Shown here piece after piece: positions 20,761 through 43,673 of a stretch of 49,217 nt of DNA. The notes beneath the pieces are model-generated. The model was not told where the DNA came from and made no database searches. It saw only the letters and a program-made list of their open reading frames with translations. Source of the stretch: an uncultured Clostridia bacterium (GTDB taxonomy: Bacteria > Bacillota > Clostridia > Oscillospirales > Acutalibacteraceae). Where the stretch lies: assembly GCA_945983355.1 (NCBI GenBank), contig CAMFSU010000014.1:1-49217 (forward strand). The letters are read 5' to 3'. How positions within the stretch are numbered: the stretch's first letter is position 1; each line of letters begins with the position of its first letter. Position numbers and translations under genes: made by a program.

Positions 20761-20764
20761 TAAC

Positions 20765-20793
20765 AAAGACGGCAAAAAGCCGTCTTTGTTTTT
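20765..20793 (+). terminator. Terminator of the tmcAL-DMT operon
   Basis: AAAGACGGC-AAAAA-GCCGTCTTT followed by GTTTTT. A near-identical copy occurs at 21022-21050. Confidence 0.9.
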
Positions 20794-20797
20794 ATGG
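20765..20797. repeat. 33-bp direct repeat, copy 1 (terminator duplicate)
   Basis: Matches 21022-21054 with one mismatch in the hairpin loop. The pair brackets the intergenic repeat at 20798-21021. Confidence 0.8.
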
Positions 20798-20811
20798 TCG
20801 AGGCGACAGGA
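20795..20811. repeat. Left attachment-site-like repeat (tRNA-Pro 3' end)
   Basis: TGGTCGAGGCGACAGGA, identical to 43657-43673. Here it is not followed by the rest of a tRNA gene. Confidence 0.75.
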
Positions 20812-21021
20812 AAGCATTTATAAAATTTTAATATATTACCCGCGCGGCCCTCTTGCGGTGACAAAGTTTATTACGGCTTGTAGCGCCTATAAACTTTGAC
20901 CGCTGCGCCTGAAAAAACTCGCTTTATCGTCCACCGGACGCGCTCGCTTTTTCAACCCTGCGTCCCTCACCGCGTTCGGGACTGATACAGCAAATTTGAA
21001 TATTACCGCAATAATAAAAAT
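20798..21021. repeat. Intergenic repeat family, left copy
   Basis: It shares ordered blocks with 43735-43903 at matching spacing: TCTTGCGGTG (20851), GACCGCTGCGCCT (20898) and TCCACxGGAxGCGCTC (about 20930). No open frame or RNA family is recognised. Several inverted segments occur (AAACTTTG with CAAAGTTT; GTCCC...GGGAC). It is flanked by the 33-bp terminator duplication. Confidence 0.6.
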
Positions 21022-21054
21022 AAAGACGGCACAAAGCCGTCTTTGTTTTTATGG
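21022..21054 (+). terminator. Second terminator copy / direct repeat copy 2
   Basis: AAAGACGGC-ACAAA-GCCGTCTTT-GTTTTT then ATGG. No gene reads into it from the plus strand, so it is a duplicate rather than a gene end. From 21055 to 21180 I see no gene; there is a loose direct repeat of a GTAGC..GCAGATTT segment. Confidence 0.7.
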
Positions 21055-21180
21055 CAAAGGCTTATAATATGGCTACCAAGGGGTAGTGTTACAGCGGGTT
21101 ACACTTTTCTCTTTTAACCGTAGCAGATTTCTCTTGTAGCCGTTGCAGATTTTGTACCCCTCAAAAACAACAGAAAAACA

Positions 21181-21220
21181 GAGCTGAACCTCAATGGCTA
21201 TCATCGAGATTCAGCTCTTT
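21181..21220 (-). terminator. Terminator of the recombinase operon
   Basis: Imperfect long stem AGAGCTGAATCTC / GAGGTTCAGCTCT followed on the minus strand by GTTTTT. It overlaps the last codons and stop of the gene at 21211. Confidence 0.75.
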
Positions 21221-21561
21221 TCGATTTCACGGGCATTATTGAGGTCAAAAGCAATCACCCCGTGCGTCTTACTAACCTTTCCGGGGACACGATAGGATTT
21301 GCCACAATCCCAATCGAACTCCGTAGCAAGAAGCCTACACAGACGAATGCTTGTCAGTTCCAGGCTACTTTTTCCGTTATATACAGTTGCGGGAACTCGA
21401 TGGGAGTGAAAATCTTTCCTTTCATACGGGGCCAACAATAATGAATTACCTTCTTCCGAGAGCATAAAACAGATATACTTCGGGCAGCCAATTTCTCGAA
21501 GTGCCTTAACAAATATATGAATACGGTTATTTTTGAGGTAAAATGATAAATAGGTGTCCAT
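21211..21561 (-). CDS. Stand-alone recombinase-tail-like protein, copy D
   Basis: 116 residues. The C-terminal VIAFDLNNAREI matches the FNLPNA/FKLSDF/FDFSDA block of the other three copies in this operon. Conserved hydrophobic strands precede it (YICFMLSEEGNSLLLAPY). It is the most diverged and lacks the SIRW motif. ATG at 21561 is used because it follows the upstream stop by 4 nt; a longer frame would overlap that gene. The function is unknown; it probably works with the serine recombinase. Confidence 0.6.
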   Translation of the reverse strand: MDTYLSFYLKNNRIHIFVKALREIGCPKYICFMLSEEGNSLLLAPYERKDFHSHRVPATVYNGKSSLELTSIRLCRLLATEFDWDCGKSYRVPGKVSKTHGVIAFDLNNAREIEKS

Positions 21562-21565
21562 CACA

Positions 21566-22015
21566 TTAATTACCGTCCTTTTTAGTAACCCAATGCTCTG
21601 CATCACTAAAATCAAAAAGCATCATTACTTTTTTATTGACAGTTACAAGGCGTCCGTTGGCACGGTAATTAAATTTCGGGTCTAATCCCCAGGCATCATA
21701 TATTAAGTCTCCGAAGCGTTTGGACTCCATATTTCGGATGCATAAATTTTTGCCTCCCTTAATCCAACGAATAGAATCCTTATCTACCGAGTTGACCGGG
21801 ACAACAATAAGACATTTCGATTTTGGATTTACCTCAATGCGTACATATTCGCAGTTGTTCAAGCTGGTAAGTACCAGTTTACTGAAGGACAATTTTGTAG
21901 GCCAAATAGAACACGATGGCTCGTTTTTCCTCGGAAGATGAACAAACATATCGGAAGATACGATTTGAAAGCCATCTAACGACATTTCTTCTATTGGATT
22001 GATGCTTGTAGACAT
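21566..22015 (-). CDS. Stand-alone recombinase-tail-like protein, copy C
   Basis: 149 residues with the shared blocks LDGFQIVSSDMF, KLSFSK, NPKSKCLIVVP, DSIRWIKGG and LFDFSDAEHW. They run in the same order as in the recombinase tail and copy B. AAGGGGGT lies 8 nt before the ATG. It follows copy B by 12 nt. No enzymatic motif is visible; a DNA-binding or assembly role is inferred from context only. Confidence 0.65.
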   Translation of the reverse strand: MSTSINPIEEMSLDGFQIVSSDMFVHLPRKNEPSCSIWPTKLSFSKLVLTSLNNCEYVRIEVNPKSKCLIVVPVNSVDKDSIRWIKGGKNLCIRNMESKRFGDLIYDAWGLDPKFNYRANGRLVTVNKKVMMLFDFSDAEHWVTKKDGN

Positions 22016-22027
22016 TTGAATACCCCC

Positions 22028-22630
22028 TTAAGTTTTATCTGTTGTAATGTAACCGTCAGCAAGGTCGATTTTATATGTTTCCTCATGATGCTCGACCGGT
22101 GTGCCGAAATATTCACGCCATTCGCCGGGAAGATACGATTTTGTTTTTCCGCCTTTGACGAACAATTCAAAATCGGAAAGTTTGAATAGGTATAGCATTT
22201 CACCCTCGCAAACAGCAGGTTTACCCATCATTTTGTAACGATATTGGGCATCCCACCCCATGAGGTCGAAAATTTTAGCAGCAAAGATTTTGCAGAGCAA
22301 ATCTCGGTTTTGCAGTTCTTTTTCTCCGCCACCTCGTGCCCAGCGGAGGGAGTCGGGTGCATCTGCCTCGCACGGACGAATAATCAATCTTTTCTGCTCG
22401 GGGTGAATTAAAATTTGAATGTGCGTTACCCCCGGAAACCTACGCAAGCAAGCCATATTAAATTTGATTCTGCTGTCCCAAATAGTGATGGCAGGCTCAC
22501 GTGAATGGGCAAATAACTCTGCCTTTGTGACTTGATATCCGGCAAGGTTAATTAGCTCTTCCGTTTCCTCCGGCTGCCCCTCCAAAGGAACGCTGTTATT
22601 AAAATAGTGTTCAGTCTGTGTCGTGTCCAT
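22028..22630 (-). CDS. Stand-alone recombinase-tail-like protein, copy B
   Basis: 200 residues. An N-terminal acidic stretch is followed by the shared module: LAGYQVTKAELF, RIKFNMACLRRF, IHPEQKRLIIRPC, DSLRWARGG, FKLSDFELFV. A C-terminal part includes LPGEWREYFG, matching PEEWDGDFG of the recombinase tail. This is the copy closest to the tail. ATG at 22630 is chosen (AGAGGAAT upstream); the gene overlaps the recombinase end by 20 nt. Homologues may be labelled integrase in databases, but no integrase motif is present. Confidence 0.7.
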   Translation of the reverse strand: MDTTQTEHYFNNSVPLEGQPEETEELINLAGYQVTKAELFAHSREPAITIWDSRIKFNMACLRRFPGVTHIQILIHPEQKRLIIRPCEADAPDSLRWARGGGEKELQNRDLLCKIFAAKIFDLMGWDAQYRYKMMGKPAVCEGEMLYLFKLSDFELFVKGGKTKSYLPGEWREYFGTPVEHHEETYKIDLADGYITTDKT

Positions 22631-24452
22631 CGTCTGTATCAATTCCTCTCGTTAGTTTCTCCATCGACAATTGCAGTTCTTCAGGAGATGCAGTTGTAAA
22701 TTGTTCAATACCGGGTGCAAGAATACTCTGTGCTTGTGAGTTCCACTCGGTTTTCGGTGCTATATAATAAAAACCATTCTCAAGGGCGTGTTCATAAAAT
22801 CCTTCGCCGAAATCGCCGTCCCATTCTTCGGGGCAAAACTCGATACGGCGTTTTACACTTGAAGCATCCCCGTCATTAACCGTAAGAAGTGTGGCGGGTA
22901 CGGCATTGGGCAGATTAAAAACAATAATCTGCTCTGAGCCACGAAATGCCCAAGTGCCTCGAATTTTGTAACTATACTCTGGATTCCAGCTCATAATACT
23001 GTACAGAGCATTGCCAAAGTGCTGACAGTTTAAGGTTTTTGAATAGATAGGTTTTTCCGGGTCGGGTCGCCATCTTATGCTGTGCGTATCCGACTTTTTG
23101 CACGGGCGGATAGCAATGCGCCGTTCAGTTGGATGCAGCAAAAGTTGAATATATGCGATGTTATCGAATTTTTGAACGCAGAACTTATTAAATGAAATTC
23201 TTTCGTTTGAAATATTGATAACGGGGCCTTCGTATCGATGCTGAAGGAAGTGGCTGCGGACAACCTGGTAACCATCAAGGTCAAATGCACAAAAAGCAGA
23301 TTTACTAATACTTTTAGTGCTACGTGGCTGGCGAACACTATTGGAAATGTCATAATAGGTGCCTGGGTCGTCATTAATCCAATGATGGTTTATTGGGATA
23401 AAGCCCGTAAATATACCCTCATCAATGACATGAAGAAGCGGAAGACCTCCACGCATATGATGCTTTCGGTTTTGCAACAGCACTTGTACAGCCTCAAACT
23501 TCTCAACAGAAATTATAGCCTCGTGGTGACCTGTATAAAGATATTGGTCTCGGTCTTGATTATTTCTTTTATGCTTATGTTCGTATAGGTCAGCCGTGAA
23601 GGTTTTCCAAGTAAGAACACTTCCGCAGTAACGCTCGTTTGTAAGAATATAGCCCACGGACCCGCTGTTCCATCCTGTGCCGCCGGACTTTGTTTCGCAG
23701 CCAATATCCGTGAGAATATCGGCTATCTGTGATTGTGACCATCCGGCAAGATAGGCATCATAGATAAAGCGGACTATTCGAGCCTCACTCTCATTTATGG
23801 TAAGGGGTGCGTATTTTATATATCTGCCGGTTACGTCCTTTGGTCTGTCATACCCCAAGGGAGCAGGTGTCAGCAACTTGCCGTCCTTAAACCGCTGTTG
23901 AAGGGACCAATTCATGGCTTCACTCTTTTTTACCGACTCTTCCTGTGCAAAGGTTGCAAGGAAGGAAAGCATAAATTCGGTGTTTTCCGAAAGAGTATAA
24001 AGGTTGTCAGTTTCAAAAAATACACCAACGGGAGGATTAAGACCTTTCAGCATACGAATAAGTGATATGCAATCAACGAGGTTTCTCGCAAATCGAGATA
24101 CGCTTTTTGTTATAATAAGGTCATATTTCCCGCGTTTGCACTCCTCAATCATTTCATTGAATTGGTCTCTGTTTTTCAATGAAGTACCCGAAATGCCTTC
24201 ATCAGCATAGATGTGCCTTAACTCCCAATTAGGGTGGTCTTCTACGAGTTGACGATAATGTGCCTGCTGAAGTTCAAAGGAGGATAACTGTTCATCGTTA
24301 TCCGTAGAAACACGGCAATATGCACATACACGATAAATGTGACCCTCACTATATAAATCGGCTTTGGGTTTCGCAGGAATAAATGTTCTGCTACTTTCAT
24401 CTACCGTTTGATAAATTTGTCGAAGTTGCTCTCGCTCTTGCGTATTTGCCAT
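22611..24452 (-). CDS. Large serine recombinase with atypical C-terminal domain
   Basis: 613 residues. The resolvase/invertase catalytic domain (about 40-185) has nucleophile Ser49 in AYCRVSTD, DEGISGTS, and the active-site Arg segment SVSRFARN (about 118). The Recombinase domain (about 200-310) contains LGYDRP and NERYCGSV. The usual Cys zinc ribbon and coiled coil are absent. After HVIDEGIFTGFIPI comes a domain (about 395-560: LDGYQVVRSHF, HPTERRIAIRPC, HSIRWRPDP, FNLPNA) repeated in the next three genes. All catalytic motifs look intact. GAGGGCGGG lies before the ATG. It probably excises or integrates the island or a part of it (inference). Confidence 0.88.
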   Translation of the reverse strand: MANTQEREQLRQIYQTVDESSRTFIPAKPKADLYSEGHIYRVCAYCRVSTDNDEQLSSFELQQAHYRQLVEDHPNWELRHIYADEGISGTSLKNRDQFNEMIEECKRGKYDLIITKSVSRFARNLVDCISLIRMLKGLNPPVGVFFETDNLYTLSENTEFMLSFLATFAQEESVKKSEAMNWSLQQRFKDGKLLTPAPLGYDRPKDVTGRYIKYAPLTINESEARIVRFIYDAYLAGWSQSQIADILTDIGCETKSGGTGWNSGSVGYILTNERYCGSVLTWKTFTADLYEHKHKRNNQDRDQYLYTGHHEAIISVEKFEAVQVLLQNRKHHMRGGLPLLHVIDEGIFTGFIPINHHWINDDPGTYYDISNSVRQPRSTKSISKSAFCAFDLDGYQVVRSHFLQHRYEGPVINISNERISFNKFCVQKFDNIAYIQLLLHPTERRIAIRPCKKSDTHSIRWRPDPEKPIYSKTLNCQHFGNALYSIMSWNPEYSYKIRGTWAFRGSEQIIVFNLPNAVPATLLTVNDGDASSVKRRIEFCPEEWDGDFGEGFYEHALENGFYYIAPKTEWNSQAQSILAPGIEQFTTASPEELQLSMEKLTRGIDTDDGHDTD

Positions 24453-24467
24453 AATCCCGCCCTCTTA

Positions 24468-25499
24468 CTAATCTGTGCTACTTTTTGGCAACTGCCAGTA
24501 CCAGCCACCATCTTTCTTTATCGACCTAATACCCATCTGCTTTTTTATATTCATAATAGTTCGTTCACTTATATTTTCTTTACTGAACATAGTGCGAATT
24601 TCCGAAACGGCAACCGGTCCATCGGCAAGTATCACTCGAAGGATATCGGCTGCTCGTGCCTGCTTTGTGGTTTTCTCCTGTATATCATATGAGAGTTGAG
24701 AACCTTCGTATTTATCGGGGTTAATGTCCAACCACTCTAATTTCCGTGATGCATCAACGGAGAAAAACAAATCTTTACCTTTTGGAGAAAGGCTACTTTT
24801 TACATGGTGAATAACGGAAATTGAATCGTCCTGCAAATGCTCAACTTGAATTACACTTCGAGCTGCTGCCACAAGGTCTATACTTCCAAGGCTACGATAT
24901 AATTCCTTTGAGCTTTGCTTTTTGTTAAGGTGTCCAATTAAGACTACGGCGCAATCATACATTGCAGCCCATAAAGCAAGCTGTCGTAGCACCTTTCTTA
25001 GCCGAGAGACGCTTGCAATATCGGTTTCTCCAAGGTATGCCTGTATGGGGTCGATAACTAAAAGTTTAGCATTAAAATCAGCAATAGCCCTACGGACAGA
25101 GTCATCATTAAGGGTTATAAAATTTGTTTCCTCATCTAAAAAAGCCACATTGGAACAATCTGCCCCAGCAGCTGTCAAACGAGGCTTTATTGTGTCACTT
25201 AATCCATCTTCAGAACATTGATAGATAACGTGCATCGGTTTTTTCGGTTTTCTGCCGTCAGGAGCAGCCGTTCCGTTAGAAACAGCGGAAATAATATTCA
25301 TCATAAGGGTGGATTTGCCACAACCTGGGTCGCCCTGTATTAATGTGATTTTTCCAAAAGGGATATACGGATACCACAGCCAGTCAACTGATGTTTCCGA
25401 TATACTACTGTAAAGTTTCAACTGACCGTCACATAAATCAAGCATCGTCTTATCCTTCCCGAAACGCCAAATTTCGCTCCTTTTGGTAATATCATTCAT
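24468..25499 (-). CDS. RecA-fold (AAA_25/RepA-like) ATPase
   Basis: 343 residues. Walker A QGDPGCGKSTLMMN (about 54-67), Walker B LLVIDPIQAYLG (about 145), sensor HLNKKQSS. The C-terminus is a winged helix (about 290-335, ISERTIMNIKKQMGI). It resembles the hexameric RepA-type helicase/primase-loader ATPases of plasmids and phages. It is first in the recombinase operon, 15 nt upstream of the recombinase. The ATG at 25499 lacks a good ribosome site; ATG at 25445 has GGAAGGA upstream and may be the real start. It could serve island replication or recombinase assembly. Confidence 0.75.
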   Translation of the reverse strand: MNDITKRSEIWRFGKDKTMLDLCDGQLKLYSSISETSVDWLWYPYIPFGKITLIQGDPGCGKSTLMMNIISAVSNGTAAPDGRKPKKPMHVIYQCSEDGLSDTIKPRLTAAGADCSNVAFLDEETNFITLNDDSVRRAIADFNAKLLVIDPIQAYLGETDIASVSRLRKVLRQLALWAAMYDCAVVLIGHLNKKQSSKELYRSLGSIDLVAAARSVIQVEHLQDDSISVIHHVKSSLSPKGKDLFFSVDASRKLEWLDINPDKYEGSQLSYDIQEKTTKQARAADILRVILADGPVAVSEIRTMFSKENISERTIMNIKKQMGIRSIKKDGGWYWQLPKSSTD

Positions 25500-25710: not shown

Positions 25711-26055
25711 ATGATAGATTGCGAAAGCATCGGCGCCAGAATACGGTGCCACAGAAGAAAAAATGGCCTGTCGCAAGAAGAACTTGCTGAACAGGCCGAA
25801 ACAAGCAGGGTTTACATTAGTAACATTGAACGTGGGGAGGCAACCCCAAGTCTGGAGGTAATACTTAATATTGCCAATGCACTGTGTGTATCTGCGGATG
25901 ATTTACTTGCCGGGAATCTACTTTCTTCGAACACGGATAGCACGGAAACAGAAATGGATATTTTGTTTGATTGTTCGCAAGAAGAAAGTCACATCCTTTT
26001 AGAGAATATGCGTGCATTGAAACAGCTTCTTCGAAGATACAAAATTACAAAATAA
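25711..26055 (+). CDS. XRE-family regulator, divergent to the recombinase operon
   Basis: 114 residues. The HTH_3 domain (about 8-63) contains RRKNGLSQEELAEQAETSRVY and SNIERGEATPSLEVILNIANAL. The acidic C-terminal segment is a probable dimer or ligand region. TGGAGG lies 7 nt before the ATG. It sits head-to-head with the ATPase-recombinase operon, so it is the likely repressor of that operon and of itself. Confidence 0.85.
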   Translation: MIDCESIGARIRCHRRKNGLSQEELAEQAETSRVYISNIERGEATPSLEVILNIANALCVSADDLLAGNLLSSNTDSTETEMDILFDCSQEESHILLENMRALKQLLRRYKITK

Positions 26056-26108: not shown

Positions 26109-27520
26109 TTACACGGCAGATATATCAATTGCCGTTCCATTCTTGAATAAAAAGGTAATTCTATTATCCTTGTGAACTGTTGCTGTTTCCAATAGTGAAA
26201 TCCACAGCTTTTCGTCCCAGTGTTCGAGGACGAGAGGCTGTTTTTCTATGGTGCCGATGAAAATGCGGAATTCTCGGTCGTGCTGCATCCGGCTATCCCT
26301 TTCTGTGGTTACGAATTTGAGCCGTTTTTGGGTCCTTTCATATCGGCTAACCAGGCTATTATATTTTTTGGTGTATTCCTCTTGGGATTGTTCCTTTGAG
26401 GCATTGTCCTTGATGCATTGGCTCACCAGCTCGGCAATTACCTGGAGTTCCTCGTTCAGCCTATCGATTTCCGCATTCTGCTCCGTGCAGTCGCACACCA
26501 AAGACCTCATAGCCTCGCAGGCTTTAAGGAGTATATCTCGGTCAGCCATTAAGGTGTTGTATGCTTTAAGGAACATCTGCTGTATGGTTTCGGTGTCGAG
26601 TGTCGGTGTTTCGCACTTTGACTCACCACCGAACTTGTGATTACAGCGCCATATTTCTCTGCGGTAAGGGTCGTTTGAATGCCAGGTCTTTTTGCCGTAA
26701 AAGCAACCACAATCACCGCAGATGAGCTTGCTTGCAAAGATGCTCATTCCGCTATAACCATGCCCCAGACTTTTTCTTCGTGCAATCTCGTTCTGAACCA
26801 TATCGAAGTCCATCGGTGTTATGATTGCCGGATGGCTGCCCTCGACATAGTATTGGGGTATTTCACCCTCGTTGACCTTTTGCTTTTTCGTGAGGAAGTC
26901 CACAGTATATTTCTTCTGTAATAATGCATCGCCCTTGTATTTTTCGTTTTGTAAGATGCTCAAGATGGTGCTTTGACTCCATTTGGTTTTACCGCTTGGG
27001 GTCGGTATTCCGAGGGCGTCAAGGTGCTTGCAAATGCCGGACGGGGTTTTGCCCTCAAGGAACATTTTGTAAATCAGCCGAACCACCTCTGCCTCTTTTT
27101 CATTGATGACGGGCTGTCCATCCTCGCCACGGTCATAACCGAGGAAGTGGCTAAACGGCATCGTAACTTTGCCATCAGCGAACCTTTTACGCTGACCCCA
27201 GGTAACGTTCTCGGAAATGCTACGGCTTTCCTCCTGGGCAAGGCTCGACATAATGGTTATGAGAAGTTCGCCCTTGCTGTCAAAGGTGTAAATGTTTTCC
27301 TTTTCAAAGAAAACCTCAACGTGGTGTTCTTTAAGGGTTCTAACGGTAACAAGGCTATCGACAGTATTGCGGGCAAAACGGCTCACACTTTTAGTTACAA
27401 TCAAATCAATTTTGCCTGCCAAGGCATCGGCTATCATTTCATTGAAGCCCTCACGGCGTTTAGTGTTCGTGCCGGAAATGCCCTCATCGGTATAAACTTT
27501 TACAAACTCCCAATGCGGTA
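26109..27520 (-). pseudogene. Serine recombinase lacking its N-terminus
   Basis: Coding is recognisable from about PHWEFVKVYTDEGISG to the C-terminus. It has the rest of the resolvase domain (SVSRFARNT), the Recombinase domain (FLGYDRGEDG, NEKYKGDALLQ), a zinc ribbon (CGDCGCF, WRCNHKFGG, CETP) and coiled coil. It is thus a typical large serine recombinase, unlike the one at 22611. The first 60 or so residues, including the nucleophile Ser, are gone. At about 27515-27520 the sequence switches to a phage tail gene in another frame. The frame formally opens at 27599, but those residues are out-of-frame tail-gene sequence. Inactive. Confidence 0.8.
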
Positions 27521-27876
27521 ATTGTGCCGATGGAAGTTCCGCTGTAAGTACCGCTGAATCGCCAGGATGCCGACAGAGCCACACCCGTTTTCGTACCATT
27601 ACTGTTGTGGTTTACACGAACAGTATAGGTTTTGAGCAAGGTCGTATCATATCCTGCCACATCATCGCTGATTGCAGCGGCAGTATAGGTTTCGGATACG
27701 CCATTGATGGATACCGTAGAGTCGGAACGAGAGCCAACCGAAATGGTGTAATACTTCAAATAAACCTTGAGGGTTACATCGGAGTAGTTGCCCGTTACGC
27801 TTTGGGTCGCAGACCAGGTGCAGTACAGGCCGAAGTTGTTTACGGGATATTTATAAAAAGAACCGCTTAATGCCAT
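27484..27876 (-). pseudogene. Phage tail/minor structural protein, 3'-truncated
   Basis: The N-terminal 120 residues resemble a DUF859-type siphovirus structural protein: Ser/Thr/Gly-rich beta repeats such as SGTYSGTSIGTITALG. The frame runs into the recombinase remnant at about 27518 and stops at 27484. The usual protein is several times longer. AGGAGGT precedes the ATG. It follows the coiled-coil tail gene by 14 nt. Confidence 0.6.
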
Positions 27877-27890
27877 AAAGCTGTACCTCC

Positions 27891-28979
27891 TTAGTCAAGA
27901 ATTACAATGTTCAAGCCTTCCGAAGCGGTCGGCATAGGCACGAACTTGGTTTTGCCAACGGTCAATTCACCATCAACCGTGGTCTTTTTTGTTATGGTTT
28001 CGTCCTTATTAAGGGTAAAAATCTTCTCCTCATTGTAGTAGCCGGAGAACTCGGTGTTGTTGATAACCGTCCTCTGTGCGGAGTCTGCATTGGAAACCTC
28101 AATACCACGGCGGTCGATTTTAACCTCTGTGGTATAAATCTCATTAGGAGCGGGAGTCCACTTGTGAACTGTCGTACCTTCCGCAAGGATGATGTCGGCA
28201 ATATACAAACTCGCAAGTCGGTTATATGCGTAAATGGTAATAGTGCCGTCTTGAACGTCGTCGATAACAGCCGAATATTCCGTCCAATCGAAGGTGGAGG
28301 TTGTGCTGAAAAGGTACTTTATTTTTGAGCCGTTGTATTTGATATAAAAATACGAACTGTACCCCGATGTCGTTTTCTTGGCACGGAGTGAAATGGTGTA
28401 GGAAGTTCCCGTTACCGCCCCCGTTACCACTTGCTTGAGGGTTGAAGAATCACTCAAAACAAAGCAAGAATTAGCGGTTGTGTTGTTTTGGGCATCGGTG
28501 CTGCTGTCGGTGGAAACTGTGCCGGAGGTAATCCAATCATCGGTTAGACCATTAAGTCCCGAAGAATTATGGATATAATTGATACCTCCTGCGAACTGCT
28601 CCTGCATCGTAATGGACAAGCCGTCAACCGAATGCTCAAGCTCGGAAACCTTGCTCTGCATTTCAAGCACCTTGGATTGTTCGTTACCAAGGTCATCCTC
28701 CAAGGTTTCAACTGTTTCTGTCAGCGTACCGACATAGGAGTTAAGACCATCTACGCTGTTTTGAAACTCACCGAATTTGGTGGTGTGGGTGGACACGGTT
28801 TCTCGTAGGTCATCCAAATTGTTCTGCACGACCCAGCCTTGTCCGTCCCACACCATCGTTTCGGGAGGGGTTGTAGCGGTGTTAACCCACAACTGACCTT
28901 CGTAAGGGTTCTCCGGCGGCATATCGGACGCAACGACATCGTTGATATGAATGATGGTATACTGTGCGACAGCCGTCAT
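27891..28979 (-). CDS. Phage tail fibre-like protein with coiled coil
   Basis: 362 residues. An N-terminal segment ENPYEGQLWVNTATTPPETMVWDGQGW (in two parts) is typical of phage minor tail proteins. A long coiled coil follows (about 55-130). A beta-rich domain (about 135-270, INYIHNSSGLNG then YTISLRAKK then STFDWTEYSAVI) resembles carbohydrate-binding modules. The C-terminus carries a short conserved IDRRGIEVSN segment. AAGGAGG precedes the ATG. It probably forms a receptor-binding part of a siphovirus tail. Confidence 0.7.
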   Translation of the reverse strand: MTAVAQYTIIHINDVVASDMPPENPYEGQLWVNTATTPPETMVWDGQGWVVQNNLDDLRETVSTHTTKFGEFQNSVDGLNSYVGTLTETVETLEDDLGNEQSKVLEMQSKVSELEHSVDGLSITMQEQFAGGINYIHNSSGLNGLTDDWITSGTVSTDSSTDAQNNTTANSCFVLSDSSTLKQVVTGAVTGTSYTISLRAKKTTSGYSSYFYIKYNGSKIKYLFSTTSTFDWTEYSAVIDDVQDGTITIYAYNRLASLYIADIILAEGTTVHKWTPAPNEIYTTEVKIDRRGIEVSNADSAQRTVINNTEFSGYYNEEKIFTLNKDETITKKTTVDGELTVGKTKFVPMPTASEGLNIVILD

Positions 28980-28991
28980 AAAAGTCCCTCC

Positions 28992-30071
28992 TTACAGCGT
29001 TACAACCACCATAAAGGTTGCTTTTGTGGAAACATCGGAAGTGGAAACCGACAGCGTTTTGCCGGTCTTTGAGCCGGAAGTTCCCCAAGAGGTGTCGATA
29101 GCACCGTCCTTGTTATACTTCGTCCAAGTATAGGTGCCTTTGCCCTCGGCATCGATTTCCGCACCCGCCTGGTAAACAACTGCGGTAAGCACCGTAGAAC
29201 CTTGGCCGTTCTTAAAGACATCGCCGCCCGTGGAGGTAACAATGACCTGGATGGGGTCGGAGTTGTCGATGAAGGTCGCAACATCGGTGAAGGTGCTGTT
29301 GTAGGTGTTGGAAGTGGAATCCGAGTCGGTTGCCACGCAGCGGAACACCGCATAGCTGTCAACGGCAGCCGCATACACAGTAAGAGTTGCCGTGGTGGTG
29401 CCAGTATATTTGCCCGTGGTATCGGAGAGCTTTCTCCAACCGATGCCAAAAGAGGCATCATAGCCGGAAGAAGTGGTAGCGGTAACGGTGCTATCCATAA
29501 TGGCCCACTTGTAGGTAACGTTTGTGGTATCCACAGTAGAACCGCGCCACAGCTCTGCCTTTGCAGTAAGAGTTGCGACTTCGGTATTTTTAAAGACGTT
29601 ACCGTTGGGAGTGGTTACGAGCAGGTCAACGATACCACCGCCGTTGACAACTCTGCTAAAGGAAATTGTCAGCGGATGAGTAATGGAAAGACCCGTAGAT
29701 GCATCCTTGTAGGTGATTACGCAGCGGTAATCAATACCGGTTAAACCTGCCATCACGTTAGCCTTTACGGTCAAAATATGGCTCTTTGCACCGCTCAAAG
29801 CATAGTTGCCGGAACTTGTAATGGCGGTAGTGGAACTACCCACATACCACTTAACAGAGGTAACCGCAGCGGATGTGATTTGGTCGGTAGTTGTACCGAT
29901 AACATAAAGGCTGGGAGTTAAGACCAGGTTGGTCTTTGACCAGTCGGGAGTGTAGGTCGCATTGTCGGGGTTATACATCTGCGACTTCACGTGGTTTGAG
30001 CCAATATAACCTGTGAGGGTTAAGGCGTCATTGTAGTCAATAATCGTAAACTGACCTTGTGCTTTACTCAT
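28992..30071 (-). CDS. Phage tail protein with Ig-like repeats
   Basis: 359 residues, all-beta and Thr/Ser/Val-rich. At least three Ig-like (Big-type) units are seen, with repeated NGNVFKNTEVATLTAKAELW, GGDVFKNGQGSTVLTAVVY and TATLTVYAAAVDSYAVFRC. The N-terminus SKAQGQFTIIDYNDALTLTG is a phage tail-spike lead-in. ATG at 30071 is chosen because AAGGAGGA lies 7 nt upstream; the longer frame runs through the preceding small gene. It is probably a tail tip or fibre component. Confidence 0.7.
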   Translation of the reverse strand: MSKAQGQFTIIDYNDALTLTGYIGSNHVKSQMYNPDNATYTPDWSKTNLVLTPSLYVIGTTTDQITSAAVTSVKWYVGSSTTAITSSGNYALSGAKSHILTVKANVMAGLTGIDYRCVITYKDASTGLSITHPLTISFSRVVNGGGIVDLLVTTPNGNVFKNTEVATLTAKAELWRGSTVDTTNVTYKWAIMDSTVTATTSSGYDASFGIGWRKLSDTTGKYTGTTTATLTVYAAAVDSYAVFRCVATDSDSTSNTYNSTFTDVATFIDNSDPIQVIVTSTGGDVFKNGQGSTVLTAVVYQAGAEIDAEGKGTYTWTKYNKDGAIDTSWGTSGSKTGKTLSVSTSDVSTKATFMVVVTL

Positions 30072-30090
30072 AGGAAAATCCTCCTTATAT

Positions 30091-30240
30091 TCAGCCGAGC
30101 AGGCTGTTTCTTGTTGTAGTGTCGATGAGGTCACAGAAGAAGGTTGCTCGTACCTTGACATCATCGGAGGTTATTTCGATGAATTTTGTTCCACCGAAGT
30201 GAGCATCATTCCACAGCTTATCTGCTTCGGCATAGGTCAT
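30091..30240 (-). CDS. Small phage protein, 49 residues
   Basis: The ATG overlaps the upstream stop as ATGA. Codons run MTYAEADKLWND...NSLLG to a TGA 19 nt before the next start. GGAG sits within the upstream coding end, at very short spacing. The protein is mostly helical at first, then TKFIEITSDDVKVRATFF. It fits the tight spacing of the operon and is likely real, though I know no family for it. Confidence 0.55.
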   Translation of the reverse strand: MTYAEADKLWNDAHFGGTKFIEITSDDVKVRATFFCDLIDTTTRNSLLG

Positions 30241-30578
30241 TCCTCCATTTCATAGTTTTTAGCCACATCCACGACATAATGGAAGTAGCCCGTTTCAGTT
30301 TCATAACCGATATATCTGCGGTCGGTTATGGTAAAATCCGCGCCGAGAAAGGCACGGACAATTGCGTTCTTTTCCTTGGTATAACTATCCTTTGCATAAA
30401 GGGAGAGCCGTGCCTCCTGCACTTCGGCAAGGGGGCGGTTATCTCCGTGTACCGCAAAGGTGTCCACCAAAGGCTCAATAACGATATATTTGTCCGGGGG
30501 CGTATCTTTAAACACTCCCGTTTCAAAGGGTATACCAAGGGTGTCGAGAACCGCATTGATATCCTTAAGCAGACTCAT
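30237..30578 (-). CDS. Phage tail terminator-like protein
   Basis: 113 residues. Its position after the gp10-like gene and its pattern (DINAVLDTLGIPFETGVFKD..PDKYIVIEPL..RLSLYAK) fit the small tail-completion/terminator proteins of HK97-like siphoviruses. AGGAGG precedes the ATG, and the start overlaps the upstream stop by 4 nt. Confidence 0.55.
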   Translation of the reverse strand: MSLLKDINAVLDTLGIPFETGVFKDTPPDKYIVIEPLVDTFAVHGDNRPLAEVQEARLSLYAKDSYTKEKNAIVRAFLGADFTITDRRYIGYETETGYFHYVVDVAKNYEMEE

Positions 30579-31006
30579 ATTTTATCGACCTCCTCTTGGA
30601 ATTTTCGCTTCATAGCATCTTCCGCAGCCGCTTTGCTTGCGGATTTGGCAGGATTCAAAAACGGCTTTGCTCGTTGACCGCTTTTTCCGTATTCGAGAAT
30701 ATTTGCGATTTTTGCGTTGCTACCACCATCAGAACGAGGCTCGGAAAAGCCAAGTTTGATATTGTGGTTGCCGTTTTTATCCACCTTAACCGGGGTAAGA
30801 CCGAGGGAGCGTTCCAATTCGCCCGTGGTACGGGAATCGTAAGCTGTACCGCTACCGATGACAGAGGCAAGGTTGCTCTTGGTTTTTGCCAAAACAATCT
30901 CACCGCCAGCCTCCAAAACACGCTCGGAGATTTCATCGGTTCTGCTACCCAGGCGGGATAGCTTTTCAAGGAAATCATCCGGCATTTGAATATCAGCTTT
31001 TGCCAC
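30575..31006 (-). CDS. HK97 gp10-like phage protein
   Basis: 143 residues. The helical N-terminal MPDDFLEKLSRLGSRTDEISERVLEAGGEIV and C-terminal ILEYGKSGQRAKPFLNPA match the HK97 gp10-like head-tail connection family. GTG at 31006 is chosen (AAGGTGG upstream, 14-nt overlap with the previous gene); the frame is open further upstream but that would overlap more. Confidence 0.75.
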   Translation of the reverse strand: MAKADIQMPDDFLEKLSRLGSRTDEISERVLEAGGEIVLAKTKSNLASVIGSGTAYDSRTTGELERSLGLTPVKVDKNGNHNIKLGFSEPRSDGGSNAKIANILEYGKSGQRAKPFLNPAKSASKAAAEDAMKRKFQEEVDKI

Positions 31007-31334
31007 TGGTCGACACCACCTTTTTTGCAAGAACCTCAATATACATCCCACGACCTTTGACATCCTCCACGGAGGTGATGTCGTATTTATCACCATCACA
31101 GGCGATAATAAGGTCGGTGGTTATATTAAGATCGGGTATGCAGCGAAAACGGAAAAGGTCAGTAGCCTCCGAAAAGGCTGCCAGGTTTGCCCACCGCTGT
31201 GAGCCGTGCCGACCTTCACGATAAGCACGGACAGAAGCCAAACAATCATAAACTGTGGTGGAAAAACCTTCTTCGTCCTTTTCCTTTCGCATAATAACGA
31301 TGTCCACGGGGGTTCTCATTTTACCGAAACTCAT
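30993..31334 (-). CDS. Phage head closure / head-tail adaptor
   Basis: 113 residues, beta-rich. MRTPVDIVIMRKEKDEEGF at the start, CLASVRAYREGRHGSQRW and the terminal KGRGMYIEVLAKKVV fit the head-tail adaptor family (gp16/SPP1-like). GGAAGGTG precedes the ATG. It lies between the gp6-like connector and the gp10-like gene, the standard siphovirus order. Confidence 0.7.
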   Translation of the reverse strand: MSFGKMRTPVDIVIMRKEKDEEGFSTTVYDCLASVRAYREGRHGSQRWANLAAFSEATDLFRFRCIPDLNITTDLIIACDGDKYDITSVEDVKGRGMYIEVLAKKVVSTSGKS

Positions 31335-31335
31335 A

Positions 31336-31647
31336 TCACACCTTCCAATCTCGGTCGAGCCTTAACAGAAGATTGACCGTGTTCCATACTTGCTGTGCCG
31401 CCTGGGGATTGTCTTGGAAAAAGCCGCCTGTGCTGCCATCCCTGGACTCGTAAAAGTGGGATGACAGCATTATTACGGCTTGTTCCGTTGTAGGCGGCAT
31501 AGGATTTTCGGAGTAATATCCGCTTGGAATGTGCTGATAACTTTCGGCATAGGAAACAGCGGCGGTGATGTATCCCTTCAGTAAGGGGTCATCAGCCTCG
31601 TGTTCCAGTATTAAGTTTTGCTTGACCTTTGCGAGAAGTTCATCCAT
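31336..31647 (-). CDS. Phage gp6-like head-tail connector
   Basis: 103 residues. LLAKVKQNLILEHEADDPLLKGYITAAVSYAESYQ and AVIMLSSHFYESRD are the hallmark helices of the HK97 gp6/DNA-packaging connector family. ATG at 31647 has GGAGG 8 nt upstream; a GTG 9 nt earlier is possible. It follows the capsid 3' remnant directly. Confidence 0.8.
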   Translation of the reverse strand: MDELLAKVKQNLILEHEADDPLLKGYITAAVSYAESYQHIPSGYYSENPMPPTTEQAVIMLSSHFYESRDGSTGGFFQDNPQAAQQVWNTVNLLLRLDRDWKV

Positions 31648-31670
31648 CACCGCCACCTCCTTTCATTAGG

Positions 31671-31985
31671 CAGTGGTAGTTTCTGCCTTGAGCTTGAGGA
31701 TTTTAACAGCCTCGGGGAGAATGAGCTTGCCGTCAACGCGCTCCTTGGCAACGAAGCCGACCATACCATTTCCGGCGAAGAGTTCCTTGAGTTCGGCAAA
31801 GGAACGAGTGCCACGGTCACCGATGTTGTAATACTTGAAGTCACCGAAGGCAATGGCATCTTCCGGGGCGAACTGGGAAGTATAAACCTTGTAGCCGAGG
31901 ATGCGGTCAGGCTCACCCTCCTTGTAGGAAGGCTGCCAAATATAAGAGCCGTTGTTATCCTTAAACTTGCGGATTCTTCGTTGTA
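31671..31985 (-). pseudogene. HK97-family major capsid protein, 3' fragment
   Basis: Only the last 100 or so residues remain, reading FKDNNGSYIWQPSYKEG, then GYKVYTSQ..., FGDFKYYNIGDRGTRSF, VAKERVDGKLI and ending KAETTTA. This is the C-terminal P/A-domain part of HK97-type major capsids. The frame is preceded by sigma-factor sequence in a different frame, so the 5' part of the capsid gene, with protease, portal and terminase, was deleted. It has no start codon of its own. Confidence 0.8.
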
Positions 31986-32297
31986 TGCGATGAGGTCGTC
32001 GATTTGAGGAGAAGTGTCTGCAATACTGTCAATCCAGCTCGTTTCATTGCCGTCATCGTCTGTTGTAGTAATATCAAGGGACCGAAAATCTCCGGCTCTG
32101 CGGAACGGACAAGATTCGCAATCCATATCGCAATCAAGGCGTTTGTTAGCGGGGCATACGCACTTTCCGTGATGTTGCTGTCTTTGCCTGTAAAGGTTGA
32201 TGTCGTGGTAGTAGGCATCGAATTCTTCCTGGGTGCAAGGGATGCGTTCCTTGGTGGAACGGATGTAGATATAACGGGTGTTTTCATTATTTGTCAT
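31975..32297 (-). pseudogene. Phage-type sigma-70-like factor, 5' fragment
   Basis: About 105 N-terminal residues remain, reading RYIYIRSTKERIPCTQEEFD, a Cys cluster CVCPANKRLDCDMDCESCPF and a SLDITTTDDDG...DDLIAYNEE region. The pattern matches sigma-like transcription factors of clostridial prophages. The region-4 helix-turn-helix that should follow is missing; the reading frame continues meaninglessly into capsid sequence to 31647. AAAGGAG precedes the ATG. It may still be translated, but cannot be a normal sigma factor. Confidence 0.7.
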
Positions 32298-32352
32298 AAT
32301 TTGGCTCCTTTCGGTTTTACAATCCGTCCAGAGCCGACAATCCGCTATAAAC

Positions 32353-32415
32353 AGAAAAAGACGGCAGGGTGAGACCCAACTCTCCCGTAGGAGAATTTAG
32401 GTCCCGCACTGCCGT
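32353..32415 (-). terminator. Terminator in the phage regulatory region
   Basis: Long stem AAGACGGCAG / CTGCCGTCTT with an inner GGGACC...GGGTCTC pairing and a TTTTTCTG tail on the minus strand. Confidence 0.75.
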
Positions 32416-32449
32416 CTTGCGTTCTGGCGGATTACCTTGTGTTATTTAC

Positions 32450-32608
32450 TTACGCTGCTGTGGGTAGTGGAACATTCTCAATATTGAGCGTTCCGTCGGG
32501 GTTTGCGGTGATACGGGTGATGCAATTTTTCTGAACAATCTCTGCGACCTTGTGGTCTTTACTCCAATCGCACACTCGCTTCCCGTTAAGGTTGCGGAAT
32601 TCTTCCAT
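32450..32608 (-). CDS. Small conserved element protein, 52 residues
   Basis: It runs MEEFRNLNGKRVCDWSKDHK, then VAEIVQKNCITRITANPDGT and ends LPTAA. ATG at 32608 lies 8 nt after GGAGG; another ATG at 32614 is too close to that site. The CITRI..NPDGTL pattern recalls small proteins common in clostridial mobile elements, without known function. It lies between two strong terminators, so it needs its own or read-through transcription. Confidence 0.6.
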   Translation of the reverse strand: MEEFRNLNGKRVCDWSKDHKVAEIVQKNCITRITANPDGTLNIENVPLPTAA

Positions 32609-32625
32609 CGACATTCCTCCTTTCG

Positions 32626-32677
32626 GCAAAAAAATATGGGGCTAACGGAGCAGGAATGTTCCTGTTCCGTTAGCCCC
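32626..32677 (-). terminator. Strong hairpin terminator
   Basis: Stem of about 18 bp (GGGGCTAACGGA.CAGGAA against TTCCTG.TCCGTTAGCCCC) with a 2-nt loop, followed on the minus strand by ATATTTTTTT. It separates the 61- and 52-residue genes. Confidence 0.85.
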
Positions 32678-32712
32678 AATTGGCTCTTCATCAGTACCGA
32701 TTTACTGATGGA

Positions 32713-32898
32713 TTATACGATATTCTTTTTTACTTCCATAACGGTGAGTGTACCGTCCTTTTTCTGCTTGACTTCAGCATTGTTTCCGCGTCCGCAGATG
32801 ATGCGGATTTTTTTCATAATGGACGAATCCTCTTGAGAGGAGGACTGTGGCTGTGTGGGTTTTACGGTCTTCGCTGTTGCGGTGGTTTGTTCTATCAT
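32713..32898 (-). CDS. Small element protein, 61 residues
   Basis: Thr/Gln/Ser-rich N-terminal half, then KKIRIICGRGNNAEVKQKKD and TLTVMEVKK. GAAGGAGGAT lies 7 nt before the ATG. It follows the XRE regulator gene by 18 nt and likely shares its transcript. It shows the same KxDGTLTV/NPDGTLNI pattern as the next small protein. Function unknown. Confidence 0.6.
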   Translation of the reverse strand: MIEQTTATAKTVKPTQPQSSSQEDSSIMKKIRIICGRGNNAEVKQKKDGTLTVMEVKKNIV

Positions 32899-32916
32899 TC
32901 AAAATCCTCCTTCAAA

Positions 32917-34068
32917 TTAGAATGGCAAGTCATCTGCATCGATGTCGTCATCGGTTATATCGTCTTTCATAAAGGAATCAATAGCGTACATCACATCGTT
33001 ATTTACCTTTGGGTGTTCCATTCGCTCTCTTACCACGGTGAACAACACTTCGAGAAGAGGAGCAACGGGGGTATCGTCTTGTGATGCGAGTAAGAGTTGA
33101 CAACCTTTATTGGGGACATACATCCACGCCTCTTTAGCATGTGCCGATGCATCATCGGTTCTGTGTACGCTTTTTTCAATATCCATCAAATAGAGTGTTG
33201 TACCGTTCTTCAACCTCAGATTAAAACAGTCACCGCTAATGTAGGTGCGGGGGCCGAAGGTTTTTGAGTTCAACACAATACGGGTTACTTCTTGCGGATA
33301 TTCACAATCGGTTTCTTCATAGAAAGTTTCTTCGGAGAACAGAGGGTGGTAAATATATCCGTTTATATCCGGCTCTATTCTATTAAGATTAAAAGCAGAT
33401 TCTCTGCACCAATCCAGTTTGTCCTTAAGAGTGTCGGCTTTCAACTTATCGAAAAAGCTGACAATGTACTGCTCTGTGGGAGTGAGACCGGTGAGGTCAA
33501 TCGATATAAGGGTGTCGATACTAACTTTGAGCAGTTTTGCAGCGGTGACAATAAACTCCATACTTGGTTCAGCGGTGTTGCCGTCTTTTTCAAGACGTGA
33601 CATATAACCGAGGCGGATTCCGGCTTCTTTTTCAATTTGGCCGATTTTAACCTCTGGGTGCTGTCGGAGCAATTCACGAATGTTGGAAAAACAAAGAGTT
33701 TTATTGAAGTTCTTGTATTCGCCGAGGAGTGCCTCCAACTGAGTAAGATAGCTTGCCCATCGATTGCGTTCCTTTTTAAGTGCCTCGCAACGTGCAACTA
33801 TATCTTCTTGTGTTCCATATTCCTCGGCAAGAGTATATGCCTCTTTTGAGTCTGCTGACTCGTCTATGTGTTCCCATCTTTGGGCGGCAGCCTCGAGTTC
33901 TCCTATCCTGGAATTCAAATCGTCTATTTCGCTTACTACAAGATTATATTTTTCTTGTATCTCATCTTTATTACAAAGACCCAGCTCGGCGGTTGCTATG
34001 AAACCTCGGATAACATCTTTCTCATCGATTTCGCTGAGTCTTGTTTCGGATAATTTAATTTTAGCCAT
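32917..34068 (-). CDS. XRE-type regulator with N-terminal coiled coil
   Basis: 383 residues. The N-terminal 130 residues are helical and coiled-coil (YNLVVSEIDDLNSRIGELEA). A central HTH_3 domain (about 140-190) has IGQIEKEAGIRLGYMSRLEKD and MEFIVTAAKLLKVSIDTLI. The C-terminal 180 residues are unassigned, with an Asp-rich end (DDITDDDIDADDLPF). ATG at 34068 has AAAGGAAGG upstream; the longer frame is rejected. It has its own strong promoter with an inverted repeat over the -35, so it is probably autoregulated. Likely an island regulator. Confidence 0.75.
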   Translation of the reverse strand: MAKIKLSETRLSEIDEKDVIRGFIATAELGLCNKDEIQEKYNLVVSEIDDLNSRIGELEAAAQRWEHIDESADSKEAYTLAEEYGTQEDIVARCEALKKERNRWASYLTQLEALLGEYKNFNKTLCFSNIRELLRQHPEVKIGQIEKEAGIRLGYMSRLEKDGNTAEPSMEFIVTAAKLLKVSIDTLISIDLTGLTPTEQYIVSFFDKLKADTLKDKLDWCRESAFNLNRIEPDINGYIYHPLFSEETFYEETDCEYPQEVTRIVLNSKTFGPRTYISGDCFNLRLKNGTTLYLMDIEKSVHRTDDASAHAKEAWMYVPNKGCQLLLASQDDTPVAPLLEVLFTVVRERMEHPKVNNDVMYAIDSFMKDDITDDDIDADDLPF

Positions 34069-34100
34069 ATGATACCTTCCTTTCGCATCTCGGTGATAAT

Positions 34101-34129
34101 ATAATACCACCATTTGCACGATTTGTCAA
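34101..34129 (-). promoter_or_regulatory. Promoter of the coiled-coil XRE gene with operator
   Basis: Minus strand TTGACA (34129-34124), 17 nt, TATTAT (34106-34101). TTGCAC and GTGCAA form an inverted repeat around the -35 (about 34114-34138). Confidence 0.75.
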
Positions 34130-34281
34130 TAGGTGCAATAAATATTTTACATTCGCAAGTAAATGCAAAGTTGACACCCAGCATCTCGTTGTCATGTGTT
34201 TTTGGAGAAGCGTGAAGTGCTACAATCAGCCACACACCACGGCTAAAATGATTTATTTCACAAAAACTTCATCAAAACCTC

Positions 34282-34311
34282 TTGACAAGGTGAAGTTGCA
34301 GAGTGTATAAT
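34282..34311 (+). promoter_or_regulatory. Promoter of the rightward XRE gene
   Basis: TTGACA (34282-34287), 18 nt, TATAAT (34306-34311). Half-sites of type GAAGTT(GATGA) in both orientations lie at about 34263, 34290, 34322, 34356 and 34381, so it is surrounded by likely operators. The interval 34069-34427 holds no gene apart from these control signals. Confidence 0.75.
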
Positions 34312-34341
34312 GAGTTCGTAACCTCATCAACTTCACTTTTA

Positions 34342-34370
34342 AGTATAAACACGAAATGAAGTTTTGTCAA
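34342..34370 (-). promoter_or_regulatory. Opposing promoter in the XRE control region
   Basis: Minus strand TTGACA (34370-34365), 17 nt, TATACT (34347-34342). It reads across the rightward promoter toward the gene ending at 32917 and shares the GAAGTT half-sites. Confidence 0.6.
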
Positions 34371-34427
34371 TAGGTTTGCTGAAGTTGATGAAGTTTCAAA
34401 TGTGAATTTTTTATGGAGGAACAAATT

Positions 34428-34865
34428 ATGACTTTTTCCGACAAAATTAAACGCTCCAGAGAAGTAGCAGGAATGACCCAGCAGCAGTTGGCTGATGAGG
34501 TCGGTGTTTCCAAGAGAACGATAGCCTCTTATGAATCCGATGGTGCCAAAGCCAGAAGAGCCACCATTGAAAAGTTGGCTGCCGCCCTCAAGGTTTCCGT
34601 GAAGTACCTTTCCAACGATGATTGCCTTGACCCTCTGGAAGATATCGAAAAGGACGAATACATTGAGCAGGCACGTGCGTTGTATGGTGCAAAGGGTGTT
34701 CGTGATATGAATGAGCTTCTTGCGGATAACGCAGCCCTTTTCGCCGGCGGTGAATTGTCCCAGGAGCAGAAGGATGCATTCTTTGAGGCTGTTATGACCG
34801 CTTATGTTACTTCTAAGGAAGAAGCAAAGAAAAAGTTTGGTCGCAAACATAAAGATGAGGCTTGA
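34428..34865 (+). CDS. XRE-family regulator
   Basis: 145 residues. The HTH_3 domain (about 5-60) has IKRSREVAGMTQQQLADEVG and SKRTIASYESDGAKARRATI. An acidic/helical C-terminal half follows (LSQEQKDAFFEAVMTAYVTS), of the type seen in phage and ICE repressors paired with ImmA. ATG at 34428 follows GGAGGA by 8 nt. Its promoter is ringed by repeated half-sites, so autoregulation is likely. An ImmA/IrrE-like peptidase lies three genes downstream. Confidence 0.85.
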   Translation: MTFSDKIKRSREVAGMTQQQLADEVGVSKRTIASYESDGAKARRATIEKLAAALKVSVKYLSNDDCLDPLEDIEKDEYIEQARALYGAKGVRDMNELLADNAALFAGGELSQEQKDAFFEAVMTAYVTSKEEAKKKFGRKHKDEA

Positions 34866-34945
34866 GTCCGTTTTATGGGACATATGCTATGATAGAATTA
34901 ATATAGGAAGGTCCCTAAAAATCGGATTTTTGGAGGTGAAATCAC

Positions 34946-35491
34946 ATGAAAAAAGGTGGAAAAATAGCACTGCTATGCTTCTTTTTGCCGTGTGAGGTCT
35001 TCTTCGTTATTTGCACTATCCCTGCTTTATTTATCTTTTTGCCGATTGGCATTGTCGGTTTAGTGGTATCCACATTCTTTGGATTGGTAGTTGCGTCTAT
35101 TATTCAATCGATAAAAGGAAAGAAACCGATTCTAAACCTTTTCCGTGAAGGTACGAAAACCTGCAAAAAGTGCGGAACTACATATGAAAAAGCAAAATTC
35201 TATGGCTGCCCTCATTGTGCAGAAGAAAAAAGAAAGAACCAACCGCCATTGCCTACTTTTGCAGAGATGCAAGAAGCAAGAATGGCACGGAAGGCTCGGA
35301 AGGCTGCGTTTTGGGAGGCCGTTGGCACTATTGCGGTTATTGATGAACTGACAAGGCCAAAAGAGAAAAAGCAGGATATGTGGGCACGGATGGATAACGA
35401 TGGTTATATAGACCACGACCCCGGCAACCACGACGTGGACGAGTCTGGCTATTGCATTGATTGCGATAATAACGTCGAGGATATCATGTAA
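34946..35491 (+). CDS. Membrane protein with zinc-ribbon-like motif
   Basis: 181 residues. Two hydrophobic helices (about 7-28 and 30-55), then a CxxC...CxxC ribbon (CKKCGTTYEKAKFYGCPHC, about 73-91). A charged helix follows and an acidic C-terminus with a second Cys pair (YCIDCDNN). The ribosome site GGAGGTGAAATCAC is strong. Family and function are not recognised. Its location between the XRE gene and ImmA suggests an island maintenance or immunity function (weak inference). Confidence 0.65.
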   Translation: MKKGGKIALLCFFLPCEVFFVICTIPALFIFLPIGIVGLVVSTFFGLVVASIIQSIKGKKPILNLFREGTKTCKKCGTTYEKAKFYGCPHCAEEKRKNQPPLPTFAEMQEARMARKARKAAFWEAVGTIAVIDELTRPKEKKQDMWARMDNDGYIDHDPGNHDVDESGYCIDCDNNVEDIM

Positions 35492-35493
35492 AA

Positions 35494-35772: not shown

Positions 35773-35810
35773 ACAGCAGTTATTTGCTTTCATATAAGGA
35801 GGGGTGATAA

Positions 35811-36365: not shown

Positions 36366-36377
36366 GCCGGCTATGAA

Positions 36378-36872: not shown

Positions 36873-36892
36873 TCGCAACTTATCCCAAAATT

Positions 36893-36912: not shown

Positions 36913-36933
36913 GCCGTCTTTTTGTGCTATAAT
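36905..36933 (+). promoter_or_regulatory. Promoter of the LlaJI-like operon
   Basis: TTGACG (36905-36910), 17 nt, TATAAT (36928-36933), 44 nt before the first methyltransferase start. Confidence 0.8.
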
Positions 36934-38387: not shown

Positions 38388-38388
38388 A

Positions 38389-43656: not shown

Positions 43657-43673
43657 TGGTCGAGGCGACAGGA
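43657..43673. repeat. Right attachment-site-like repeat (inside tRNA-Pro)
   Basis: TGGTCGAGGCGACAGGA, identical to 20795-20811. It is the 3' end of the tRNA gene, a classic integration target. Confidence 0.75.

Follow-up and report, generated by a model that had tools for sequence, protein, structure and literature searches.

Most accounts present the serine integrase as a machine made of a single protein, which one small factor switches. What kind of machine, then, is encoded where the tail domain of a serine recombinase recurs in the proteins of the next three genes? We addressed this question for an operon in a 49,217-nucleotide stretch of DNA (contig CAMFSU010000014.1; hereafter the window) from an uncultured Clostridia bacterium of the Acutalibacteraceae. 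Of five consecutive genes on the minus strand (21211-25499), the first encodes a RecA-fold ATPase, the second a serine recombinase (A) and the other three, in order, the small proteins B, C and D; X denotes the domain common to A, B, C and D. A preliminary description had proposed that X is present four times and that the operon looks like a multi-subunit recombination machine. The genes are as follows.

25711..26055, plus strand: XRE/Cro-type repressor gene, divergent from the operon (HTH_3, 5.9e-15)
24468..25499, minus strand: RecA-fold ATPase (AAA_25, RepA/RadA-like), first gene of the operon in the window (PF13481, 1.3e-24)
22611..24452, minus strand: serine recombinase A, with catalytic and recombinase domains and X in its tail, without zinc ribbon
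22893..23297, minus strand: X domain of A, residues about 386-520 (joined to B, C and D by HHalign; isoelectric point (pI) 9.3)
22028..22630, minus strand: B, stand-alone X protein (HHalign to A, 3e-45)
21566..22015, minus strand: C, stand-alone X protein, confined to the four-copy branch (HHalign to A, 6e-27)
21211..21564, minus strand: D, stand-alone X protein, the most diverged (joined to A, B and C by HHalign)

B is taken from an ATG at 22630, and its open reading frame (ORF) is listed from a TTG at 22642. The ATPase also matches the PHROG family 'DNA transposition protein' (4e-20).

Sequence comparison confirmed the original observation that one homologous domain is present in the tail of A and in B, C and D. 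Shuffle-tested pairwise alignments of single sequences joined A, B and C strongly, linked D weakly to A and to B, and gave no link between D and C. HHalign comparison of aligned families joined D to B (2e-17), to C (3e-15) and to A (1e-16), as well as B to A (3e-45) and C to A (6e-27). All four copies are thus connected, contrary to the lack of homology that the preliminary description had allowed for, and the last of them is indeed the most diverged. X reached no Pfam or NCBIfam cut-off; B and D matched no family of either library at E 1, and C had at this level a single match per library, each far below cut-off. A profile of B found no match among the sequences of solved structures. The AlphaFold model of D has a predicted local distance difference test (pLDDT) score of 95.3 and that of A 79.8 overall and about 91 across residues 411-520, and the main strands and helices follow in the same order in the two models. 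Nothing in BFVD matched the model of D below E 0.001, the best match being Gp105 of Lactococcus phage KSY1 (probability 1.00, template modelling (TM) score 0.63, E 0.0045). An AbrB/MraZ-like fold, guessed from the strand order, was absent among the 50 PDB matches listed for D. Recurrent but weak matches to PCNA and the beta-clamp (E about 0.5-1.4, TM about 0.2) were discounted as evidence, and a profile signal for a duplication inside X was absent.

The catalytic side of A is conventional. A matches PF00239 (Resolvase, 2.1e-26) and PF07508 (Recombinase, 3e-24), and about 300 residues of its model match structures of serine integrases (9dxd, E 1.4e-15). In an alignment of 55 rows, the active-site residues are present in every row that covers them: Arg47 and Ser49 in 54 of 54, and Arg120 and Arg123 in 55 of 55. 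A therefore appears to be an active recombinase with intact catalytic residues. It has no Pfam match to the zinc ribbon PF13408, and a CxxC motif past the N-terminal YCRVS region is absent from 53 of the 55 rows, the exceptions being L034 and L086 with a single motif apiece, so both the intact catalytic residues and the missing zinc ribbon of the preliminary description hold. Of the features that mark a large serine recombinase, A thus has the Resolvase and PF07508 domains and lacks the zinc ribbon. Its best NCBIfam match is CcrB (1.6e-31), which covers residues 41-330 only and scores 109.5 bits against a cut-off of 900. PADLOC at E 0.01 matched neither A, B, C or D of the window nor B, D and the two ParB-like proteins of a relative, L024, and a known anti-phage defence system was excluded on the result for the window proteins. 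The weak PADLOC matches seen were those of the ATPase (mad8, 1.6e-6, spanning 28 residues around the P-loop, plus two weaker ones) and of A of L024 (0.0076).

We then asked how the operon is built elsewhere. Relatives of B numbered 189 in genome contigs and 116 in viral contigs, of which 80 each were kept, and further scans yielded 20 viral loci (query window B), 24 phage records and one plasmid. Merging 183 loci (L004-L023, L028-L107, L168-L249 and the window) by the end of B left 144 distinct loci. With SRX standing for a serine recombinase with X tail, their layouts were SRX-B-D-ParB1-ParB2 (66), ATPase-SRX-B-C-D (24), SRX-B-C-D (19) and others (35, including cut, broken or rarer forms). 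Two main layouts therefore exist, A-B-C-D and A-B-D followed by two ParB-like genes, and the order SRX-B-(C)-D is the rule. The five-gene order of the preliminary description is accordingly kept in its core and not in its details: C is missing from the larger branch, so that a fourth X copy is not universal, and the ATPase gene occurs at 33 of these loci, compared with 78 for the ParB-like pair and none for both together. An XRE-like gene adjoins the operon in most relatives in either orientation; the divergent arrangement described for the window is correct there, but many relatives have a co-directional gene. B lacked an intact SRX in 13 of the 183 loci, 10 of them truncated by the start of the contig and 3 in which SRX is broken or shortened. 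One phage (PV036413) has a recombinase without X and a single X gene next to it. Carriers are mostly gut and rumen Clostridia, judging from record titles, and include the commensal isolates Neglectibacter sp. X58, Butyrivibrio sp. XPD2006 and Acutalibacter sp. 1XD8-36. All five phage records that showed the gene have A and the X genes either as a 'hypothetical protein' or unannotated.

The separate X proteins are old and are maintained. In a tree of 112 X domains, B, C and D needed one change each and A needed two; B, C and D each formed one clade (support 89/94, 100/100 and 100/94). Both main branches are represented in the B clade and in the D clade, and those duplications therefore predate the branch split; C is known from one branch only. 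The ratio of nonsynonymous to synonymous substitution rates (dN/dS) between L038 and L046 was 0.14 for the tail of A, 0.07 for B, 0.14 for C and 0.20 for D. B is thus the lowest of the X copies, at 0.073 compared with 0.075 for the catalytic domain. Between the window and L004 the ratio was 0.03-0.04 for A and B, and dS of C and D was saturated. These codon comparisons indicate that all X copies are under purifying selection, as would be expected of distinct subunits in one machine.

Unequal, old and conserved X proteins beside an active-looking recombinase are best read as subunits of one recombination complex. We propose, giving the proposal an even chance, that the operon gives a family of clostridial genetic elements their mobility as a multi-subunit serine-recombinase module, with A as the catalytic subunit and B, C and D as X subunits. 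A carries X at the place where large serine recombinases would have their zinc ribbon and coiled coil, and B, C and D, as old duplicates of X, would have turned into separate subunits. The XRE protein would repress the operon until relieved, and a dimer of A would then bind and cut each partner site. We infer that the X subunits bind DNA and form a hetero-oligomer on or beside A, where they would complete site recognition and choose which sites synapse. They would thereby stand in for the zinc ribbon and coiled coil of ordinary serine integrases and for their separate directionality factor, a role for which B, C and D are no more than candidates. Target or partition functions would come from the ATPase in one branch and from the two ParB-like proteins in the other.

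Does such a module move? Its chromosomal copies include bare cassettes. At L038, L040 and L046, XRE-A-B-C-D is 82-84% identical, little outside it is shared and the chromosomal neighbours differ. L038 and L040 are also alike over a further stretch on the left, which runs some 55 bp into a DsbH-like gene, and an inverted stretch of 1.5 kb, well away from the cassette, is common to L040 and L046. Neighbours were identified by Pfam at 16 loci, with one to six selected genes per locus. They included ordinary chromosomal genes (CitMHS, 2-hydroxyacid dehydrogenase, ABC transporter and bile-acid symporter, for example), conjugation genes at 2 loci (a relaxase at L084 and a TraG-like gene about 8 kb off at L107) and restriction or bacteriophage exclusion (BREX) genes at 6, a count for which the background rate was not measured. 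Restriction or BREX genes lie within about 2 kb of the cassette or XRE gene at L035, L079, L083, L084, L090 and L104.

An empty site was found for one bare cassette. A search with L038:5700-16400 against 60 genomes (relatives of G070, with G070 included) revealed in G122 the L038 site without the 3.8-kb XRE-A-B-C-D cassette, the flanks adjoining with a 78-bp overlap. This 78-bp stretch occurs once in G122 and twice in L038, on either side of the cassette (identity 62/79 columns left to right, 58/79 left to empty and 65/78 right to empty), and may reflect either attachment-site likeness or an old duplication. G122 has a decayed cassette on another contig, with a similar left stretch (82% over 77 bp). 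A bare cassette has thus been gained or lost at one site. In another setting, the cassette lies within a 9.02-kb skin-like element inside a SpoIIID-like sporulation gene of Acutalibacter sp. 1XD8-36 (L054:7125-16146), a site that is empty in six aligned relatives, with core CATA (search with G072). Rfam gave no match on this element, most of which L048 shares at 97%. The module probably moves among many element kinds and sometimes alone, and A may move its own cassette. A more far-reaching version, which we put forward tentatively and with some doubt, is that of a compact element class in which the tail was duplicated into two or three subunits of a hetero-oligomeric synaptic machine, target choice or partition of the excised circle falls to a RecA-fold ATPase or to ParB-like proteins, and the whole moves alone among Clostridia chromosomes, phages, conjugative elements and restriction islands.

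Several observations weigh against the subunit reading and against autonomous movement. DNA binding by X is unproven because the model of D has no significant fold match in the PDB, and B is acidic (pI 5.6). A formed one clade in just 1% of bootstrap trees and hence may be paraphyletic, for example with B and C having arisen from within A. The clean empty site for a bare cassette is a single case, and searches for L079 (with G088) and L052 (with G087) gave no clean one. A zinc-ribbon recombinase gene lies next to the L038 site, is present in the empty G122 too, and could have acted in trans. In the L054 element it is likewise a zinc-ribbon recombinase, not A, that touches the attachment core. 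Flanking repeats exceeded the 99% control level at 11 of 136 loci, 7 of which represent one sequence, and flanking direct repeats were dropped as a general hallmark; at L061 the cassette lies between two similar 99-bp copies that include the end of the upstream endolysin gene. Finally, five of the six phage records examined name a further integrase or DNA invertase (PV036415, PV036453, PV036458, PV036413 and PV036425), and none is listed within the 6.4 kb examined of the sixth, PV036438. The multi-subunit machine of the preliminary description is partly supported: the old paralogues kept by selection are as expected of it, but the operon is often not the sole recombinase of its element, and elsewhere it stands alone.

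These companion recombinases suggest a possible, if unlikely, alternative, namely that phages and other mobile elements use the operon as an accessory module for lysogeny or early control, that another integrase integrates them, and that A resolves dimers, inverts DNA or maintains the excised circle while the ParB-like genes serve partition. The separate enzymes of the phage records and of the spoIIID element, the adjoining repressor and the frequent ParB-like pair are all consistent with it, as is the variety of nearby recombinases, which range from zinc-ribbon singles and pairs to a tyrosine trio in Bilifractor about 11 kb away. Among 40 genome loci with at least 6 kb on both sides, 14 had another serine recombinase in the flanks and 26 had none. 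The zinc-ribbon label in this count follows a rough CxxC rule, by which the recombinase beside L038 was called plain although Pfam finds its zinc ribbon (1e-6). Against such an accessory role, bare cassettes are surrounded by housekeeping genes, the flanks examined contain no second serine recombinase, and the gain or loss of one such cassette was exact. The genome of Butyrivibrio XPD2006 has no PF07508 match other than A at E 1e-5.

Adjacent pairs of X-less serine recombinases were observed near the operon at L024, L056, L058, L060, L066, L074, L075, L088 and L103, which gives three serine recombinases within one phage or element. Trios of tyrosine recombinases lie about 10-12 kb from A at G085:C12:426963-430707 and G081:C49:42008-45754; neither genome has another serine recombinase in the flanks examined. 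A 20-kb Bilifractor stretch had no DNA match to phages. One family of HK97-type portal was matched in 11 of 16 genomes searched, and on the contig of A within 35 kb in four (G073, G074, G076 and G079).

The copy in the window sits in a decayed prophage, whose features are as follows.

26109..27514, minus strand: prophage zinc-ribbon serine recombinase outside the cassette, N-terminus lost (Resolvase match starts at profile position 31)
27515..34883, minus strand: prophage remnant with tail and head-tail genes, joined to the truncated recombinase (HK97-gp10, 2e-9, at 30575-31099)
20795..20811, strand not assigned: 17-bp copy of the tRNA-Pro 3' end, direct repeat with 43657-43673, taken as the left edge of the island
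43657..43673, strand not assigned: intact tRNA-Pro 3' end (gene 43657-43733, minus strand), taken as the right edge of the island

Homology of the zinc-ribbon recombinase to its relatives ends at 27514, where the tail genes start. DUF859 (1.6e-5, below cut-off) lies at 27484-27876, and most other ORFs scanned in the remnant had no family. From the 17-bp repeat and the tRNA we deduce an island of about 22.9 kb that holds the prophage remnant and a restriction cluster. The cluster (34946-43357) comprises an ImmA/IrrE-like peptidase, a YpsA/SLOG protein, two C5 cytosine methylases, AAA_5 and McrBC proteins. No tyrosine integrase was among the window proteins scanned, despite the flanking tRNA-Pro repeat. 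A 51-bp near-repeat (86%; 20754-20804 and 21011-21061) with a terminator-like hairpin lies to the left of the operon. With B as query, one copy was found in the genome of the window. Among 70 genomes of the genus, this one included, 6 match A at 1e-60, and the matches of the other five cover at most residues 20-334, which excludes X.

It is improbable that A and its X partners merely serve this prophage as its integrase, even though its operon lies about 400 bp from the tRNA-Pro-derived repeat at the island edge and the other recombinase is broken. In five viral relatives (L006-L010) D is followed by a similar small ORF and not by an element edge. In G074, with phage terminase, portal and capsid genes upstream of the operon, another recombinase stands between D and a tRNA-Leu, and no long direct repeat confirms the prophage ends; the further integrases of the phage records also argue against this role. 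There is little probability, too, that B, C and D act outside the complex, for example as repressor partners or antirepressors, and have X in common with A by descent only. In favour of such regulators, X matched no known recombinase domain and can work apart, being a separate gene beside a tail-less recombinase in one phage. Against them, B is conserved as tightly as the catalytic domain, and the fixed order of genes that overlap or adjoin points to equal dosage.

How, then, does the proposed recombination complex compare with known systems? A shares its catalytic and recombinase domains and its active-site residues with large serine integrases (phiC31, Bxb1 and SPbeta), but has X for the zinc ribbon, together with two or three X paralogues. 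To our knowledge, no directionality factor has been described as a copy of the tail of its integrase. The CcrA/CcrB system of SCCmec, which supplies the best, partial and sub-threshold NCBIfam match of A, has two catalytic recombinases and is not known to include X proteins. As in the skin-like sporulation elements at sigK, gerE, yabG and spsM, as far as the accessible parts of their descriptions go, the L054 cassette is in an element that interrupts a sporulation gene, and with a zinc-ribbon recombinase at the edge of that element it would be a passenger or partner. The likeness of D to Gp105 of phage KSY1, which is uncharacterised, is structural. The accessible part of a study of streptococcal integrative and conjugative elements (ICEs) describes serine integrase triplets that form a multi-protein module of old duplications, with clades by position, and 10 of 42 serine integrases without a zinc-ribbon match (PMC4701971). 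In those triplets the whole recombinase is triplicated, whereas in the operon described here the tail domain alone is multiplied and separated. Integrative mobilizable elements can carry ParB, according to the accessible part of PMC5704250. We found no description of the operon in the literature searched, which lay outside subscription papers and preprints and does not imply absence from print; in PMC9226167, the main text seen contains neither 'recombinase' nor 'integrase'.

If a split-tail family with several conserved subunits is indeed encoded by these operons, site recognition, synapsis and direction would be separable gene by gene, and the family would be a possible source of new integration tools.

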